DNA of 64,000 nt from Bacteroidales bacterium (GTDB lineage: Bacteria; Bacteroidota; Bacteroidia; Bacteroidales; Tenuifilaceae), in contig JAFGDZ010000060.1 in assembly GCA_016931855.1 (NCBI GenBank), positions 1-64,000 of the forward strand. The letters run 5' to 3'. Under the pieces are notes generated by a model. That model did not search any database. It saw only the letters and a program-made list of their open reading frames with translations, and was not told where the DNA came from. Numbering within the stretch: position 1 is the stretch's first letter; each line of letters starts with the position of its first letter. The position numbers were made by a program, and so were the translations under genes. This document shows, piece after piece, positions 2,938 to 9,136 of the stretch.

Positions 2938-3996
2938 ATGAAGCGTTGGTTATTCCTGTTTTTGTTGATTGCTGCAGCTCTGCCTAATTTGTGCGTTGCG
3001 CAGATTGGGGGTGAGGCCACGTTTGCGTTTCTTAACCTTGCCTCGTCGCCCCGTGCTGCTGCTCTGGGTGGCAAAATTGCTGCCTTCGATGAGCACGATG
3101 CCTCGCTTGTTGTCCATAACCCTGCGCTGCTTAGCGCCGATATGCACAATCACCTATCCTTTGCCTATGTGGGCTTTCTTGCCGATGTTAAGTATGGCAG
3201 CGCATCGTACTCCCGCTCTTTGGGACGTATGGGTAATGCGTCCATTGGTTTTCAGCGGGTGGGGTATGACGATTTTGATGCCTCCGATGTGTCGGGCAGT
3301 ATAACGGGAACGTTTGGCGCATCGGAAACGGTAGCTAACGTGTCGTACTCCTACGCCTTCGACTCGCTGTTTACAGCAGGTGTTACCGCAAAATCAATAT
3401 TCTCTAGTCTTGAGCAGTACAGCGCCTTTGGCCTTGCTGCCGATATTGGCGTGGCGTACCGTAGCCGCAACGGGCTGTTCTCGGCAGGGTTGGTGCTTCG
3501 TAATATGGGCTCTATGCTCAAACCCTATACCCCGGGGAACTATGAGCCTATTCCGCTTGATGTTGTGGGCGGCATAAGCTACAAGCTGCAACATGCGCCT
3601 TTTAGGTTTGTGGTAACGCTTCATCAGCTGCATAACTGGAACCTGTGGTACGAGCGGCAGGAGGAAGAGGATGCCTTTGGCCTATCCGATAACAACAGGC
3701 CAAGTGCCGTTGAGCGCTTTGGCAACGAGCTGCTAAGCCACGTGGTTTTTGGCGTTGAGTTTACCCCGGTAAGGGGATTCTACCTGCGCGGTGGGTATAA
3801 CTACCAGCGCCGCAACGAGCTTAGGGTGGAGGAGAAGGTAGGCGCCGTGGGCTTTAGCTGGGGTGTGGGCGTTAAAATATCAAAGTTTAATATTAGCTAC
3901 AGCCGTGCATACTACCATTTGGCTGGGGGGTCTAGCCATTTCTCAATATCAACAAACCTAAGCACCTTTGCACGGAATAAGCGTGTGTCCAGCTAG
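2938..3996 (+). CDS. porQ: Type IX secretion system PorQ-family outer-membrane protein
   Basis: 352 residues with a signal peptide ending in LCVAQ (about residues 1-21). The mature start, FAFLNLASSPRAAALGGKIA, is the hallmark of the PorV/PorQ family, and the rest alternates as a membrane beta-barrel. In Porphyromonas gingivalis PorQ belongs to the outer-membrane part of the type IX system that exports and attaches CTD proteins. The length is close to the usual 340 or so. In P. gingivalis porQ lies next to cmk and ispH; here those two genes are on the opposite strand about 12 kb away. Family certain; choice of PorQ over PorV rests on length and the Asp/His-rich N-terminal region. Confidence 0.85.
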   Translation: MKRWLFLFLLIAAALPNLCVAQIGGEATFAFLNLASSPRAAALGGKIAAFDEHDASLVVHNPALLSADMHNHLSFAYVGFLADVKYGSASYSRSLGRMGNASIGFQRVGYDDFDASDVSGSITGTFGASETVANVSYSYAFDSLFTAGVTAKSIFSSLEQYSAFGLAADIGVAYRSRNGLFSAGLVLRNMGSMLKPYTPGNYEPIPLDVVGGISYKLQHAPFRFVVTLHQLHNWNLWYERQEEEDAFGLSDNNRPSAVERFGNELLSHVVFGVEFTPVRGFYLRGGYNYQRRNELRVEEKVGAVGFSWGVGVKISKFNISYSRAYYHLAGGSSHFSISTNLSTFARNKRVSS

Positions 3997-4095
3997 TGTT
4001 ACGCTGAACGCAGACAGGTTTTCGTGCTAGCTCTTTACGCTGTTCTTTGTGCGTTATACCAAAATCGGCATAACAATAGTTTGTTTTTTTCTAAA

Positions 4096-4127
4096 GCATT
4101 CCAACCTTTGGAGTCTATTAATCGTCT
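4096..4127 (+). promoter_or_regulatory. Putative ECF sigma promoter, copy 1
   Basis: GCATTCCAACC at 4096-4106 followed after exactly 16 bases by CGTCT at 4123-4127. An AAC-containing -35 and a CGTC -10 are the common signature of ECF sigma promoters. The same two blocks with the same spacing lie before the gene at 6971. The -10 is 22 bases before ATG 4150, so the leader would be short. Confidence 0.65.
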
Positions 4128-4149
4128 ATAAATTACTAAACCCATTACT

Positions 4150-4896
4150 ATGGCTAAACGTTTACTCGGTAGGTGTCGGCTTGGCATTGTCCTTTTACCC
4201 TTTCTGTTTCTGCTTTTAGGATGCAATAAGGATATGCTAACCTATCCTGTTAGGATAGATTTTGGTATCGGTATAAATCAGCAATCCGCACAGCAAGTGT
4301 ATGTTAGCCTGTCTGAGGCTGTTGTGGGAGTAGGCAGCATTGGGTTTGTTGGGCTACGCCAAGTGGGCGAAGGTGTTTACTTTGATACGCAGGCTGGGGT
4401 AGAACACGGTACTTATGTTATTGCCGCTGGCGATTCGGCTAAGTATGTTACCTTTTTTGATATTCCTCAGGGTGTTTATGATTTAATGAGCTGGAAGCTT
4501 ACTCTTGCCGAGATTGATGACGATGTTTATGAGGATGAGCTGGTTGATAGCGACGACTATGGGCTGCTGGTAAAGGGAGCCTACACTAGCATTGGCGGGC
4601 AGCAGCGTCCTATCTACTTTTTGGTTAACCCCATGGAGGTATTCTCCTGCGAGGCAACGGGTGCGGCAGGTTTGCTGCCTATTTCCATTGTTGATGGGAA
4701 CTCATATACCCTTTTGCTAAAGCTAAACCCTATGGAAGCTATTGCTGGAATTAACCGCGACTACTTTGAAAATGCCACAGTTAGCATAAGCGATGATGGG
4801 ATTGAGCACATAGTGGTATCCAGTGTGGATAATACAAGCATACACCAGTTTTTTCTTTTTCAACTGGCTAAAACGCTGAGAGCCACAGTTAAGTAG
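4150..4896 (+). CDS. Predicted lipoprotein, first gene of the ECF sigma operon
   Basis: 248 residues. A basic start and hydrophobic stretch end in the lipobox LLLGC with Cys25 as the lipidated residue; the following NKD does not obviously retain it in the inner membrane. The rest looks like a soluble beta-rich domain with an acidic loop (EIDDDVYEDELVDSDDYG, about residues 119-136). I do not recognise the family with confidence; it vaguely resembles DUF4382-type lipoproteins. Its stop is 14 bases before the sigma factor gene, so the two are surely co-transcribed, from the putative ECF promoter at 4096. The product is likely either part of the stress signal path or a target. Confidence 0.8.
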   Translation: MAKRLLGRCRLGIVLLPFLFLLLGCNKDMLTYPVRIDFGIGINQQSAQQVYVSLSEAVVGVGSIGFVGLRQVGEGVYFDTQAGVEHGTYVIAAGDSAKYVTFFDIPQGVYDLMSWKLTLAEIDDDVYEDELVDSDDYGLLVKGAYTSIGGQQRPIYFLVNPMEVFSCEATGAAGLLPISIVDGNSYTLLLKLNPMEAIAGINRDYFENATVSISDDGIEHIVVSSVDNTSIHQFFLFQLAKTLRATVK

Positions 4897-4910
4897 TAAC
4901 TCTTTTTATA

Positions 4911-5447
4911 ATGACTGCCTTTGACCCGCTAACCGATGAGTACCTTGTTGCAGGATGCCTAAAGAACGATAGGCGCGTGCAGGAGCAGCTGTACCGAAAG
5001 TATGCCAATGAGATGTATGCCATTTGCTTGGCGTACGAGTCGGACAGGGACTCTGCTAAGGACATTCTACAGGAGGCGTTTATTAAGGTCTTTAAAAGTA
5101 TTGACCAGTTTGATAAGCGGGGTTCTCTAAAAGGGTGGATTAGACGCATAATTACCAACACCGCAATTGACTTTTACCGCAGAAAAGGCGTTGAGGCAAA
5201 CTTTGTTGATGTGGAGCGCATTGCCGATGTTACCCCAAGCAACGATGAGGAGCTGGGTGGCTATGGCAGTGAGGATATTCTGGCTCACGTAAAGCGATTA
5301 CCCGAGGGTGCTAGGGTTATATTCAATCTTTTTGCCCTTGAGGGCTACTCGCACAAGGAGATTGCCGAGAGGCTGAATATCACCGAGGGTACATCAAAAT
5401 CGCAGTTTAGCCGGGCGCGCCAGCTGCTACAGGAATGGGTTAAGTAA
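4911..5447 (+). CDS. ECF-type RNA polymerase sigma factor
   Basis: 178 residues with both ECF domains. Region 2 (about 22-90) has RDSAKDILQEAFIKVFKSID followed by the GWIRRIITNTAIDFYRRK helix that binds the -10. Region 4 (about 125-176) has the helix-turn-helix GYSHKEIAERLNITEGTSKS and the closing SRARQLLQEW. No C-terminal extension is present. It sits between a lipoprotein gene (14-base gap) and a membrane protein gene (14-base gap), the usual place for a sigma factor with its anti-sigma factor. It probably recognises the GCATTCCAACC-16-CGTC sequences found before this operon and before the gene at 6971, which would make it autoregulatory. Confidence 0.93.
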   Translation: MTAFDPLTDEYLVAGCLKNDRRVQEQLYRKYANEMYAICLAYESDRDSAKDILQEAFIKVFKSIDQFDKRGSLKGWIRRIITNTAIDFYRRKGVEANFVDVERIADVTPSNDEELGGYGSEDILAHVKRLPEGARVIFNLFALEGYSHKEIAERLNITEGTSKSQFSRARQLLQEWVK

Positions 5448-5461
5448 GAATTGGCACTACT

Positions 5462-6766
5462 ATGAACGAGCAGGAGCTTATAGGTCAGTATCGTAATAGG
5501 GTGGAGAACTCTTCCGCGCAAGCCCCGCAAGGGCTTTGGGACGATATTGCCAATCAGCTCGATGTTGATGAGGTGTGGACAGGTGTTTCCAATCAGCTGG
5601 ATATTGATGATGTTTGGGAAGGTATATCGGCCGAGCTGGATTCCGACCGTCGTTCCCGTTCCATTTGGGTGTACGTGTCGTGGGCAGCCTCGGTGGCACT
5701 ACTGGCAACAATGGGCGTTGTAGCTTACTGGTTAACCGTTAGTAGTCCAGTGGTACAGCCATCGGTCATTACGTTGGGTTCACAGGTGGAGGTTGTTAAG
5801 CCTGTGGCTACTAGTCCCGCAGGTAGCGGTAATGAGAATCTGATTACGAATCCAACCGCCCAGCACAGCGCTGTGCGTAGCAACAATGCGGCCACTGGTG
5901 AGCCGTTGGCAGCAGTGGTATCGTATAAACCAGCGGAAACCAATGGTGCTCATCCCCAGAATAACCCTTTGGTAAGCGATGCTCAGGAGGATGGGCAGGT
6001 GGCTGGTGTTGTTACGTTAGGCACTATTGCTCCCCAGCAGGCTGTGGTTCACAAATTGGCTGTGGATAGCCCAAGCATGGCTTTGGGCAACTTTTTGGCA
6101 TATGCTCCAAGTGTTGCGCCTGTTACCAAGGAACGTTCAGGGCACCTAAGAGCACTATCGGTTGGGGCAACATCAGCAATAAAGAATACGTGGCTGTTTG
6201 GTAGCGAAACCATGGAAGGGTTAGAGAGGAATAGCTTAACCAAATCGGACGTGAAGGTTTACCCCGATTTTGGGTTTAACGTAAGGTATGGCTTCTCGCC
6301 CCGTTGGAGCGCAGAGTCGAGCCTGTTCTTTAAATCGCGTACAGGCCAATCGTACAAGGAGTACATTTACGGGCGTTACAGCAGTAAGGATATTGCCCTT
6401 TACTACACTCAAGTTGAGCTGGTTGCTAAGTATAGCAGCACAAAGCGCTGGTTAAAATCAAATTCCTATGGTTTTACCACCTCGTTGGGGATGTTCTACT
6501 CCAACCTAACATCGGCATCGGAAACTATTGCAGGCGAGAGCAAATCGGTTGACCACAGGTACTCAAGTAGCGATTATGGCTTTGTGCTGGGACAGGATGT
6601 GGAGGTTATGCTTACCAGCCGCATAGTGCTATCGCCTGGTTTGCGCTTAAAGTGGGGCTTGCCAAATATCTATGCTGGCGAGGCCAATATCCCATCCTCC
6701 CTAAAGCGTACGCACAACCGCAGCCTGGAATTTAGGTTTACCCTTTACTACAATATTTTTAGGTAG
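5462..6766 (+). CDS. Presumed anti-sigma protein fused to an outer-membrane-barrel-like domain
   Basis: 434 residues. The cytoplasmic N-terminus holds three near repeats of about 15 residues built on W-x-x-I/V-x-x-x-L-D (GLWDDIANQLDVD, EVWTGVSNQLDID, DVWEGISAELDSD; about 24-62). One transmembrane helix follows (about 68-92), then a long linker rich in Val, Ala, Ser and Pro (95-225), then about 200 residues with alternating, aromatic-rich strands and a typical barrel end (LEFRFTLYYNIF). The position directly behind the ECF gene and the single helix point to an anti-sigma factor. If the C-terminal part is a real barrel the protein would reach from cytoplasm to outer membrane. No zinc anti-sigma His/Cys motif is seen. 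Role is inference; the architecture is read from the sequence. Confidence 0.75.
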   Translation: MNEQELIGQYRNRVENSSAQAPQGLWDDIANQLDVDEVWTGVSNQLDIDDVWEGISAELDSDRRSRSIWVYVSWAASVALLATMGVVAYWLTVSSPVVQPSVITLGSQVEVVKPVATSPAGSGNENLITNPTAQHSAVRSNNAATGEPLAAVVSYKPAETNGAHPQNNPLVSDAQEDGQVAGVVTLGTIAPQQAVVHKLAVDSPSMALGNFLAYAPSVAPVTKERSGHLRALSVGATSAIKNTWLFGSETMEGLERNSLTKSDVKVYPDFGFNVRYGFSPRWSAESSLFFKSRTGQSYKEYIYGRYSSKDIALYYTQVELVAKYSSTKRWLKSNSYGFTTSLGMFYSNLTSASETIAGESKSVDHRYSSSDYGFVLGQDVEVMLTSRIVLSPGLRLKWGLPNIYAGEANIPSSLKRTHNRSLEFRFTLYYNIFR

Positions 6767-6885
6767 CTTCTGCGCTACTATGTCGTTTCTAGCTCTCCCG
6801 TACTAGTTTGTTGATGTGTAATTTGCAGGTTAAAGCCGCTTGTGGCTTCTTCTTTATTGGCTGTTTGTGCCCAAAGTTTTCTATC

Positions 6886-6917
6886 GCATTCCAACCTGTA
6901 GGCATACGTATTCGTCC
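6886..6917 (+). promoter_or_regulatory. Putative ECF sigma promoter, copy 2
   Basis: GCATTCCAACC at 6886-6896, 16 bases, then CGTCC at 6913-6917. It repeats the elements and spacing of copy 1 (4096-4127), and both also share TTTTCTA just upstream. The spacers differ, which argues that the two blocks are conserved for function and are not a recent duplication. Confidence 0.65.
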
Positions 6918-6970
6918 TTAGTGTACAAACAAGCAAGACCAAATAATCATAATAACTAAAAATTACAGCA

Positions 6971-7705
6971 ATGAAAAGATTTGCGTTACTACCGCTTGCT
7001 GCGTTGGCATTTACATCATGCGAGGATGTTTCTACTGAGGATGTGTTTACTGAGGTTCAGTTAGTTGTTAAGTCTAGTGCGGAGCTTCCTACTGTTGCTT
7101 CACCAGCCAAGAGCACCGTGGCCGAGGGTATTGTTATTGAGAACTTCTGGGTTAACATAAGCGAGGTTGAGTTTGACTTTACCGATGAGTGGGAAGATAA
7201 GCTTAACGATAGCATTATTGCCGCACAGGAGCTACAAGGCCCATTCCTTGTGAATCTTATGTCGCAGGAGGCGCTTAGTGGGCTGTCGTTGGGCACTACG
7301 CTTATTCCTAACGCTGCTTACGAGGAGGTAGAGTTTGAGTTCGATCGGTGCCTCGATGCTTCTAAACAGAGCATGTACAACCGCTCTATATACATTACAG
7401 GAACCATTGCCAACACCCCATTTGTGCTATGGTACAACAATGAGGTTGAGTTTGAAATTAGCCTGCCTAACCGCTCCAGCTTTGCGTTAACTGGTGAAAC
7501 AATGAAGCTGTACATCGATTTTAATATTGCGCAAATAGTTAGTAGCCTAACAACCATGAACTTCTCATTGGCAACCGATGGCAATGGCGATGGGGTTATT
7601 GAGATTGGCCCTAACGATGCCGATGGCAATGGCGATTTAGCCAGCAGAATTATTGAGGCACTTGAGGAGTCGGTAGAACTTGATGATAACAACCTTGATG
7701 ATTAG
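6971..7705 (+). CDS. Predicted lipoprotein with acidic, calcium-binding-like tail
   Basis: 244 residues. A short signal ends in the lipobox AFTSC (Cys17). The middle is beta-rich, with a VEFEFDRCLD strand. Near the C-terminus ATDGNGDGVIEIGPNDADGN has the regular Asp/Asn spacing of EF-hand or dockerin calcium loops, and a helix (ASRIIEALEESVEL) follows, so one calcium site is plausible. The overall plan, with a conserved N-A-A-Y-E-E-V turn, recalls DUF4382-type lipoproteins, but I am not sure of that. It stands alone between the sigma locus and a terminator, and its putative promoter matches that of the sigma operon, so it is probably a target of that sigma factor. Confidence 0.8.
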   Translation: MKRFALLPLAALAFTSCEDVSTEDVFTEVQLVVKSSAELPTVASPAKSTVAEGIVIENFWVNISEVEFDFTDEWEDKLNDSIIAAQELQGPFLVNLMSQEALSGLSLGTTLIPNAAYEEVEFEFDRCLDASKQSMYNRSIYITGTIANTPFVLWYNNEVEFEISLPNRSSFALTGETMKLYIDFNIAQIVSSLTTMNFSLATDGNGDGVIEIGPNDADGNGDLASRIIEALEESVELDDNNLDD

Positions 7706-7788
7706 CAGTTTGGGTTAAACTGGGAAGTTTTTACTGCTAAGGTTTGTTTCCCCTGGGGGTTCATTTAACACTCCGTTATTATCCCCCA

Positions 7789-7823
7789 AGCCTGCATCAT
7801 ACTTTGGTGCAGGCTCTTTTTTT
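7789..7823 (+). terminator. Strong rho-independent terminator
   Basis: AGCCTGCA and TGCAGGCT form an 8-bp perfect stem with an 11-base loop, followed by CTTTTTTT. It ends the lipoprotein transcript and closes the ECF sigma locus. Confidence 0.85.
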
Positions 7824-8371
7824 GTACCACCGTTTAAATGGGTGAATATGGTTTTTGATAAGCTTGTTTTAAGCCCCATTAGGGGCAATCTGTCGGTAGA
7901 ATGGCTTCGACAATCCGATACGCATTTTTAATCCTATCCTTTCAGGGCAGGAGGTTAGCGGTTGGAGTGTGCCGTGGGCAATTCGCGTTGCTCATTATCC
8001 ACGGTTATTAATATAGCGCCACTCCGTGGCTAAAAGTTAGTGGACGCACAAAGCCTGAAAGGCTTAAATCTCAATAACCCTCGGTGAAGCCGAGGGGTAA
8101 GAAAGCAAGACTAGATGCGCCCCGAAGGGGTGCTGCATTTGTGCTGAGACTTTGAGGATGCGCTACCTTGTGTTTTGGTTAGATGTGAATTGCTAATCAG
8201 CTGGTTAAGAGTTTAAACAAATACTAGAAAAGGAGGGCTAACTAAACGACATTAGAAGTGCAATCCTTTTTTACAGTGTATTACATCTTTGTCCATTAAA
8301 GTAACGGTAGAACTTTTTTTGTAATTTTAGGAATTGGTTACTTATCGCTTTAAAAACATATCCTTATTGTA
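7824..8371. repeat. Non-coding region with a cluster of short palindromes
   Basis: No gene is visible. Four short hairpins occur: GCCCC-atta-GGGGC (7873-7886), AAGCCT-gaa-AGGCTT (8051-8065), CCCTCGG-tgaag-CCGAGGG (8078-8096) and GCGCCCC-gaa-GGGGTGC (8117-8133). Three of the four have loops containing GAA. This is the style of REP-like elements left in intergenic DNA by RAYT-type transposases, but no transposase gene is in the window. Confidence 0.5.
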
Positions 8372-9136
8372 ATGGAAAATCTTATTCCCCTTACGCCAGA
8401 AAGTATTGAGAAGGAGCACATTTGCTGCGCTATTTCCGATAAAAAGTGTACCTATGGCTATCAGCAAAAAAAGCAATGGCTAAAACAAGAGTTTGCCAAT
8501 GGTTACGTATTTAGGCGAATTGATGCTCGCGCAAAGGTTTTTATTGAGTATGGCCCTGCCGAAACTGCCTGGGCACCCGTTGATGCGCCCAACTACCTGT
8601 TTATTGGGTGTTTCTGGGTTTCGGGGCAGTACAAGGGGAATGGGTATGGCAAGGCTCTTTTGCAATCGGCAATTGACGATGCCTTATTACAGGGGAAAAG
8701 CGGATTGGTAACCATTGTAGGTACAAAGAAGTTCCATTTTATGAGCGATACAAAGTGGCTATTACGGCAGGGTTTTGTGGAGTGCGCCAAGTTGCCCTCT
8801 GGCTTTAGCCTTCTGGTTAAGAAGTTGGATGCTGCTGCTCCATCGCCACAGTTTGGGCAATCGGCCATTGATGCTATTTGCGAGGTTAGTAGTGGGCTTG
8901 TTGCATACTACTCCAACCGATGTCCGTTTACCGAGTATCATGTTACTGAATCGCTAGTTGAGAGTGCTCGTAAACGCAATATCCCCTTAACCATAGTTAA
9001 GCTCCAAACCCAGGCGCAGGCGCAAGCCTCACCAACTCCTGCAACCATTTTCAGCCTGTTCTACAATGGGCAGTTTATTACAACCGACCTTAGTGTTTGC
9101 ATGGATAGTAGGTTTAGCAAGATTATGGAATTATAA
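8372..9136 (+). CDS. YoaP-like GNAT acetyltransferase with thiol-containing C-terminal domain
   Basis: 254 residues, matching the length of Bacillus YoaP. The N-terminal half is a GNAT fold: the acetyl-CoA loop lies in the FWVSGQYKGNGYGKALLQSA segment (Q/R-x-x-G-x-G/A, about 82-101). The C-terminal part has YYSNRCPFTEYHVTE (about 178-192), the CPFTEYHV motif of the YoaP domain, a thioredoxin-like segment with a single reactive Cys. The substrate is not known for the family. It is monocistronic, preceded by 548 bases of palindrome-rich DNA and followed by 143 bases with nothing recognisable. Confidence 0.75.
   Translation: MENLIPLTPESIEKEHICCAISDKKCTYGYQQKKQWLKQEFANGYVFRRIDARAKVFIEYGPAETAWAPVDAPNYLFIGCFWVSGQYKGNGYGKALLQSAIDDALLQGKSGLVTIVGTKKFHFMSDTKWLLRQGFVECAKLPSGFSLLVKKLDAAAPSPQFGQSAIDAICEVSSGLVAYYSNRCPFTEYHVTESLVESARKRNIPLTIVKLQTQAQAQASPTPATIFSLFYNGQFITTDLSVCMDSRFSKIMEL

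Follow-up and report, generated by a model that had tools for sequence, protein, structure and literature searches.

The window analysed here is a stretch of 64,000 nt of contig JAFGDZ010000060.1 from a Bacteroidales genome (G000, 4,077,890 bases), and it contains a locus in which genes for a lipoprotein (LP1), an extracytoplasmic function (ECF) sigma factor and a fused anti-sigma/outer-membrane barrel protein are followed by a second lipoprotein gene (LP2). With good confidence, this locus can be regarded as a self-regulating circuit of the Das-Dma (EcfO-Reo) kind that senses the envelope and in which, judging from the sequence, the sigma factor very probably turns on its own operon and the neighbouring LP2 gene. 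What the analysis shows is the gene order, the predicted protein architecture, the conservation of one promoter motif at both places and the relationship between LP1 and LP2. The features concerned are as follows.

4087–4126, forward strand: candidate promoter P1 of the LP1-sigma operon, with TTTTCTA at 4087–4093, the -35 block GCATTCCAACC at 4096–4106, a 16-base spacer and the -10 block CGTC at 4123–4126; kept before LP1 in related loci
4150–4896, forward strand: LP1, a lipoprotein of 248 residues encoded at the head of the operon; without a Pfam family, distantly related to LP2
4911–5447, forward strand: ECF sigma factor (Das-like), 178 residues; Pfam regions 2 and 4, 76% identical copy in the relative G009
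5462–6766, forward strand: fused anti-sigma/outer-membrane barrel protein (Dma/Reo-like), 434 residues; assigned from OMP_b-brl_2 (1.1e-06), an AlphaFold2 model and Foldseek
6877–6916, forward strand: candidate promoter P2 of the satellite gene LP2, with TTTTCTA at 6877–6883, GCATTCCAACC at 6886–6896, a 16-base spacer and CGTC at 6913–6916; kept before LP2 in related loci
6971–7705, forward strand: LP2, a lipoprotein of 244 residues, DUF4382-like, product of the satellite gene

The fused gene starts at 5462, after the sigma stop at 5447, and the order is identical in five relatives with complete loci. The gene assignments of the first-pass annotation are borne out: the sigma factor matches Sigma70_r2 (2e-18) and Sigma70_r4_2 (5.1e-15), both above the Pfam cut-offs, and both lipoprotein products have a lipoprotein-type start (LLLG-CNK and FTS-CED, judged by eye). 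As regards the ECF21 group, the libraries searched, which were without ECF group models, gave matches of the sigma factor to general or other ECF models only. Two points on the genes go beyond that annotation, namely that the third gene encodes a Dma-type anti-sigma/barrel fusion and that LP1 and LP2 are distant relatives.

The promoter pair and its conservation

The motif GCATTCCAACC-N16-CGTC stands with equal spacing before both lipoprotein genes, as had been proposed from the window alone, in two 31-base sites at 4096–4126 and 6886–6916; the end coordinates first given (4127 and 6917) were one base too far. TTTTCTA lies upstream of both sites, separated each time from GCATT by two dissimilar bases, and the spacers of P1 and P2 are dissimilar, as claimed; the two sites share 11 + 4 identical bases. 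In the 4.08 Mb genome, the exact motif occurs in two copies only, which are P1 and P2, while the arithmetic chance expectation for an exact 15-base match on both strands is about 0.008. Conservation at the same places in related loci is stronger proof against chance than this genome count.

Orthologous clusters are present in G009, G021, G006, G023 and G018, and in G013, where the cluster is split over two contigs. G009 and G021 have TTCCAACC-N16-CGTCT before LP1 and LP2; G006, G018, G023 and G013 have TTACAACC-N15-CGTCTTA before LP1 and TTACCACC-N14-CGTCTTA before LP2, the LP2 site of G013 lying between the Dma and LP2 genes on the other contig. The spacers differ among the clusters. TTCCAACC-N15-17-CGTC finds two sites in G000 and two in G021, all at the cluster, and three in G009, two of them at the cluster; for G006, G013, G018 and G023, a pattern written from those genomes' own sites occurs exactly twice in each, both times at the cluster, with no control matches. 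Taken together, six of the seven genomes with the cluster contain just two copies of the full pattern, and both lie at the cluster. On sequence grounds, P1 and P2 are a phylogenetic footprint: one -35/-10 pair is conserved in orthologous loci ahead of the sigma operon and of a second unit, as expected of an autoregulated ECF promoter pair.

The wider locus set was made up of the best 80 loci among 563 in which a relative of the window sigma factor had been confirmed. In a quick tree of 91 sigma factors, the window group comprises 23 rows with a support of 92 in the Shimodaira–Hasegawa-like approximate likelihood ratio test; L102 and L039 are one genome, and L102 is the same record as G006, whose sites served in training the weight matrix described below. 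The group includes Bacteroidales metagenome-assembled genomes (MAGs), a Saprospiraceae MAG (L111) and the Cytophagales Nafulsella (L101) and Pontibacter (L172). The strict motif is found at the locus in 22 of the 23 rows, L098 showing a near match only; in L172, where the order is sigma-LP1-Dma and the blocks have diverged, it stands before a divergent lipoprotein gene. Across 42 promoter regions, including those of two genomes picked up via the motif (G167 and G200), the strict pattern was found in 38, compared with 11 matches per 637,128 control strand-bases (0.0052 per scan window), and among operon heads in loci found independently of the motif 17 of 20 match. A weight matrix built from 12 sites of the first-found clusters gave 36 matches at score 16 in the 80 loci against 11 in the reversed sequence; 25 of the 27 matches scoring at least 18 lie before LP1-like genes, genes after the Dma gene or the sigma gene, and the remaining two (L101 8933 and L155 12042) lie before no nameable gene. 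Throughout most of the sigma clade, the LP1-sigma operon and the gene that follows the anti-sigma gene are both preceded by one and the same two-block promoter, and this comparative evidence supports the earlier proposal of an autoregulated sigma factor with a satellite target.

The satellite consists of one gene in the window, as proposed, whereas several satellites are possible elsewhere. For instance, L106 has three strict promoters, one of them before a 172-residue protein with a signal-like start. G167, which was found via the DNA pattern alone, has an LP1-sigma-Dma cluster with its own P1 outside the search pattern. Its second site lies upstream of the gene for an 874-residue protein that ends in a type IX sorting tail; the third, on a different contig, lies upstream of the gene for a 264-residue protein that combines this kind of tail with DUF2271. 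No other single observation speaks as clearly for the motif marking a regulon as this distant, related target.

Several results weigh against the reading of an autoregulated circuit. The 42-region pattern was written after many sites had been seen, and some satellite regions were picked because a site was present; four of the 42 regions miss it (the LP1 regions of L098 and L100 and two in L172), with near variants visible by eye, and no satellite promoter was found directly after the Dma gene in L096, L107 and L111. The third TTCCAACC-N15-17-CGTC site of G009 lies inside a gene. Relatives without a close orthologue contain this pattern 0 (G002), 0 (G003), 1 (G015), 2 (G004) and 3 (G007) times, and the reversed control gives the same range of 0–3 per genome (G000 2, G021 3); therefore, the place and not the number of sites counts. 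A class-wide scan of 395 genomes by DNA only, with a pattern ending in CGTCTTA that does not match the window's own sites, gave five sites in three genomes, one of them inside a gene (G146), against three in the control. This count proves nothing, and the places alone are informative: one site lies before an LP1-sigma operon, one after a Dma-like gene and one, on a different contig, before a relative of the target that follows this Dma-like gene. For CAACC-N14-17-CGTCT, the count in ten clade genomes was below control (92 against 218) and was dropped as support.

Other loosened counts were discarded in the same way. The genome-wide count, proposed earlier as a check, favours the motif for the full -35 block and fails for looser versions, which are at or below control, so that it separates signal only for the exact pair. 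In the window genome, up to two mismatches gave two exact sites and four at two mismatches, i.e., 6 against 10 in the reversed control; a second genome count with up to two mismatches gave 26 against 62, and CAACC-N15-17-CGTCT gave 4 against 21. Within the window, allowing up to three mismatches added one match (with three mismatches), a result that is uninformative because 14 of 100 shuffles reached at least three. Another site of the class-wide scan should be recorded in its own right: a perfect motif in L187 (G200:C27) at 2577 on the minus strand lies some 40 bases upstream of a glmS-like gene with SIS and GATase domains, a single case in a genome carrying a window-type sigma factor and possibly chance.

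The anti-sigma/barrel protein and the lipoproteins

Pfam recognises the fused protein by its C-terminal outer-membrane barrel only. In the AlphaFold2 model, built with 13 relatives, N-terminal helices at residues 3–45 have a low predicted local distance difference test score (pLDDT) and are followed by a long helix at 48–93 containing a hydrophobic segment; residues about 89–229 have a pLDDT below 50 and are predicted to be disordered; and between 232 and 431 there are eight strands, each of at least 12 residues, with blocks of pLDDT 70–96. Foldseek gave OmpA, Ail, OprG and OmpW as best matches and also OmpX, which are eight-stranded barrels. It has been reported that Dma consists of an N-terminal domain, a membrane helix, a disordered tether and a C-terminal barrel (parts of PMC13088901 drawn on here), and that the anti-sigma factor described in the corresponding parts of PMC9308784 has a comparable layout and spans both membranes. 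As modelled, the fused protein of the window has this published Dma (Reo) layout. Its identity to relatives over the whole protein is 21–46%, which points to fast divergence.

The part of the gene for the cytoplasmic end contains a further feature.

5547–5624, forward strand: two 39-nt tandem copies, 79% alike, within the anti-sigma gene

In the alignment, the extra unit is a 13-residue insertion relative to five relatives, and it may add a second sigma-binding unit.

LP1 travels with the sigma clade. Its profile is present in 22 of the 23 clade rows and absent from the 58 other loci of the best-80-of-563 set; the only clade row without a match is L104, where the contig begins at the sigma gene. 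The profile also matches in G167 and G200 and reaches LP2 of G009 (2.2e-05), LP2 of L097 (1.3e-05) and the divergent lipoprotein of L172 (1.2e-24), and hhalign of the LP1 and LP2 alignments gave 96.9% with E 1.4e-10 over 219 columns at 12% identity. P1 and P2 would therefore drive two distant relatives, and this relationship suggests an old duplication of promoter plus gene in which both copies were kept. LP2 scores 17.4 bits in the window and 23.1 in L102 against DUF4382 (PF14321, cut-off 25 bits), whereas proteins at the same locus place reach 114.7 in L139 and 104.2 in L099; LP1 has no DUF4382 match. NigD_N and NigD_C gave no match for LP1 or LP2 of the window at E 0.1, nor for 13 LP1 members. 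The signal K-(D/E)2 after the lipid cysteine, described in the part of PMC5080379 used here as a surface-export signal, is found in 6 of 13 aligned LP1 members, and three further members have D-D without K; the window copy of LP1 has CNKDM at this place. The predicted LP1 model is beta-rich (pLDDT 87), and Foldseek found no match for it at E 0.001. As for a fold family, VIA-align 2 gave MbnP (7l6g) at Z 8.9 (root-mean-square deviation 4.0, 182 aligned) and Bacteroides adhesin/fimbrial proteins at Z 6.0–7.3, which is possibly a mere common arrangement, and so no family is claimed.

Two neighbouring features and one terminator-like element complete the description. The gene for PorQ (2938–3996, type IX secretion system) was considered as a unit member and rejected, as only weak short matches were found in the six stretches searched, and a GNAT acetyltransferase with a YoaP-like C-terminal domain is encoded downstream of the locus at 8372–9136.

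7789–7824, forward strand: terminator-like hairpin 3' of LP2, with an 11-pair stem at 7789–7815 followed by a T run

Proposed circuit, rival explanations and other sigma clades

The presence of a Dma-type fusion as third gene supplies a possible mechanism. The anti-sigma protein would be anchored in the inner membrane, with its N-terminal helices holding the sigma factor in the cytoplasm, and its barrel would be seated in the outer membrane, joined through the long flexible tether. A disturbance of the outer membrane or surface would cause the anti-sigma protein to release the sigma factor, and the freed sigma factor would read TT[CA]CAACC-N14-16-CGTC promoters. Transcription from P1 would give LP1, more sigma factor and more anti-sigma protein, a self-amplifying loop that also rebuilds its own brake; transcription from P2 would give LP2. 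The published relatives autoinduce, and on this ground P1 is taken to be the arm that amplifies itself and P2 the arm that delivers the output; LP1 may be the partner of the barrel at the surface. Direct control of P1 and P2 by the window sigma factor is thus what we infer from the sequences, and we likewise infer that the sigma factor is released and reads the motif, that LP1 and LP2 lie at the surface, what they do there and what the signal is.

The two blocks might instead be the site of another regulator of both lipoprotein genes, an activator or another ECF sigma factor, with the adjacent sigma factor not reading them. Such candidates are at hand, as the window sigma query finds four other ECF genes in the genome at E 1e-20 or better, two of which precede a protein matching OMP_b-brl_2 (L044 above the cut-off, L043 just under it; the protein of L045 has no match), and CGTCTA stands before the NigD-like gene of L045. 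However, TT[CA]CAACC is absent from the 180 bases before the sigma genes of these four paralogue loci, the motif and LP1 track the window sigma clade into Cytophagales, and the words found ahead of the sigma genes are different ones in other sigma clades, so that this explanation appears improbable. A second explanation, that P2-LP2 was copied from P1-LP1 and only one promoter still works, draws on the distant relatedness of LP1 and LP2 (12% identity) and on the 11 + 4 identical bases, which make an old duplication of promoter plus gene plausible; as a full account of the shared blocks it is barely credible. Although the proteins have drifted to 12% identity and neither spacers nor flanks resemble each other, other genomes have retained the blocks ahead of both genes, which requires selection on both promoters.

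It is also conceivable that P1 and P2 are sigma-dependent but that the barrel is a mere anchor and the signal is cytoplasmic or arises at the inner membrane. The release of the sigma factor by the window protein is a proposal and the whole protein diverges fast (21–46% identity), both of which leave room for this view; nevertheless, the barrel has been kept, with a match in 7 of 14 members using one Pfam model alone, and the relatives respond to outer-membrane attack in the parts of PMC9308784 consulted. A barrel without a sensing role is accordingly rather unlikely, and an autoregulated circuit that senses the envelope remains the preferred reading.

Two of the paralogue loci of the window genome deserve description. 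L045 (G000:C74:29000-39000; 4155–6829) starts with a lipoprotein-like NigD_C protein (5.6e-05); the sequence upstream of its CGTCTA is different, and a long protein without a Pfam match follows the ECF gene. In L044 (G000:C31:28000-39000; 4028–7903), the ECF gene is followed by one for a barrel-type protein, and the locus also encodes a 424-residue LVIVD-repeat protein resembling the satellites of L140 and L174, as if the same lipoproteins had been shuffled among such circuits.

Upstream of the sigma genes of other groups, dyad counts found CAAC-17/18-GTCT in all 7 loci of a Cytophagales-type group and CAAC-16/17-CATC in all 6 loci of a second Bacteroidales group. A third group, which contains Parabacteroides together with a Prevotella-labelled record and a Dysgonomonas record, has TGCA-18/19-CATC in all of its 10 loci. 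No word was distinguishable from shared descent or A+T-rich chance in the Chitinophagaceae-rich, Flavobacteriales and Saprospira-type groups. Among 64 loci outside the window clade, 12 have CAAC-N16-19-[CT]GTC[TA] ahead of the sigma gene, with 0.013 expected per region. The candidate -35 words are TTCCAACC for the window clade, TGCAGCG for the Parabacteroides-containing group and GCAACC for another Bacteroidales group; those of the other groups were picked by eye, with no correction for the number of words tried.

In five Parabacteroides-group genomes, TGCAGCGTTT-N9-14-CATC gave 11 sites in four genomes and none in the control, and an open reading frame (ORF) of at least 60 residues follows each of the 11 within 300 bases. 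These ORFs are four sigma genes, a NigD1/NigD2 lipoprotein, a serpin, two unnamed proteins with lipoprotein-like starts, a 61-residue ORF in two genomes and a 433-residue ORF. The four sigma genes are those from which the pattern was written, and the NigD match, known as a kind of target from the parts of PMC13114119 drawn on, is a check and not proof because it is one of the seven sites not given by construction. The 61-residue ORF is alike in L190 and L196. Among 149 genomes of the order, the motif gave 18 sites against 4 in the control, three of them in G146 (at the same places as in G434), and 13 of the remaining 15 lie inside ORFs, so that this motif is of use only where the genome carries the sigma clade in question. 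A tentative wider reading, which we think somewhat less likely to hold than to fail, is that Das-type sigma factors carry a readable promoter code in which each clade's own -35 word marks its own operon and lipoprotein targets, and regulons could therefore be read from the self-promoter. The window circuit would then consist of two units, like an old promoter-plus-lipoprotein duplication, with LP1 as a surface partner or lid of the barrel that sets the sensor and LP2 as the effector.

Comparison with known circuits

Classical ECF promoters have AAC at -35 and CGTC at -10. The window promoters resemble them in the AAC core, in CGTC and in having 15–17 bases or nearly so between AACC and CGTC, and differ in an extended, clade-specific -35 block (TT[CA]CAACC, often then TTT).

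The closest known systems are Das-Dma and EcfO-Reo. In Das-Dma of Bacteroides thetaiotaomicron (Dma1-Das1 and Dma2-Das2; PMC13088901), as in the window, an ECF gene adjoins an anti-sigma gene of tether-plus-barrel layout; the own operon is among the most induced genes on loss of the anti-sigma factor (das2 at log2 4.54 in the dma2 deletion), and the lipoprotein gene nigD1, a target of Dma1, rises in the dma1 deletion. The window locus differs in that LP1, a protein lacking a Pfam name, is encoded first in the operon and that a DUF4382-like satellite takes the place of the NigD or DUF4943/DUF4858 proteins of Das-Dma; the abstract, introduction, results section 7 and discussion of that paper name no promoter motif. 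EcfO-Reo of Phocaeicola vulgatus and B. fragilis (PMC9308784, PMC13114119) likewise combines a sigma factor, an anti-sigma factor spanning two membranes and lipoprotein targets. Its sigma gene is strongly induced together with its own regulon, rising 33-fold on attack by the toxin BcpT (PMC9308784); toxins are known inducers, there are three nigD targets, and NigD production in P. vulgatus needs EcfO-Reo (PMC13114119). In the EcfO-Reo anti-sigma mutant 15 genes changed, 14 of them upwards, whereas in the window clade the full motif is confined to the locus in six of the seven cluster genomes.

The kind of circuit is thus already known from Das-Dma and EcfO-Reo. A window-type promoter was not found in the literature searched, which was mostly without subscription papers, and as far as these searches show, the new points are the promoter sequence and its conservation, the operon that begins with LP1 and the DUF4382-like satellite. 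Trans-envelope anti-sigma factors are a recent discovery, studied, in the literature searched, in gut Bacteroides and Phocaeicola. With a conserved self-promoter, their targets could be proposed from sequence in other Bacteroidota as well. The window locus suggests that the circuit also exists in a form with two units, accompanied by an unnamed co-travelling lipoprotein, and it makes the question of the barrel signal testable with a small reporter set.

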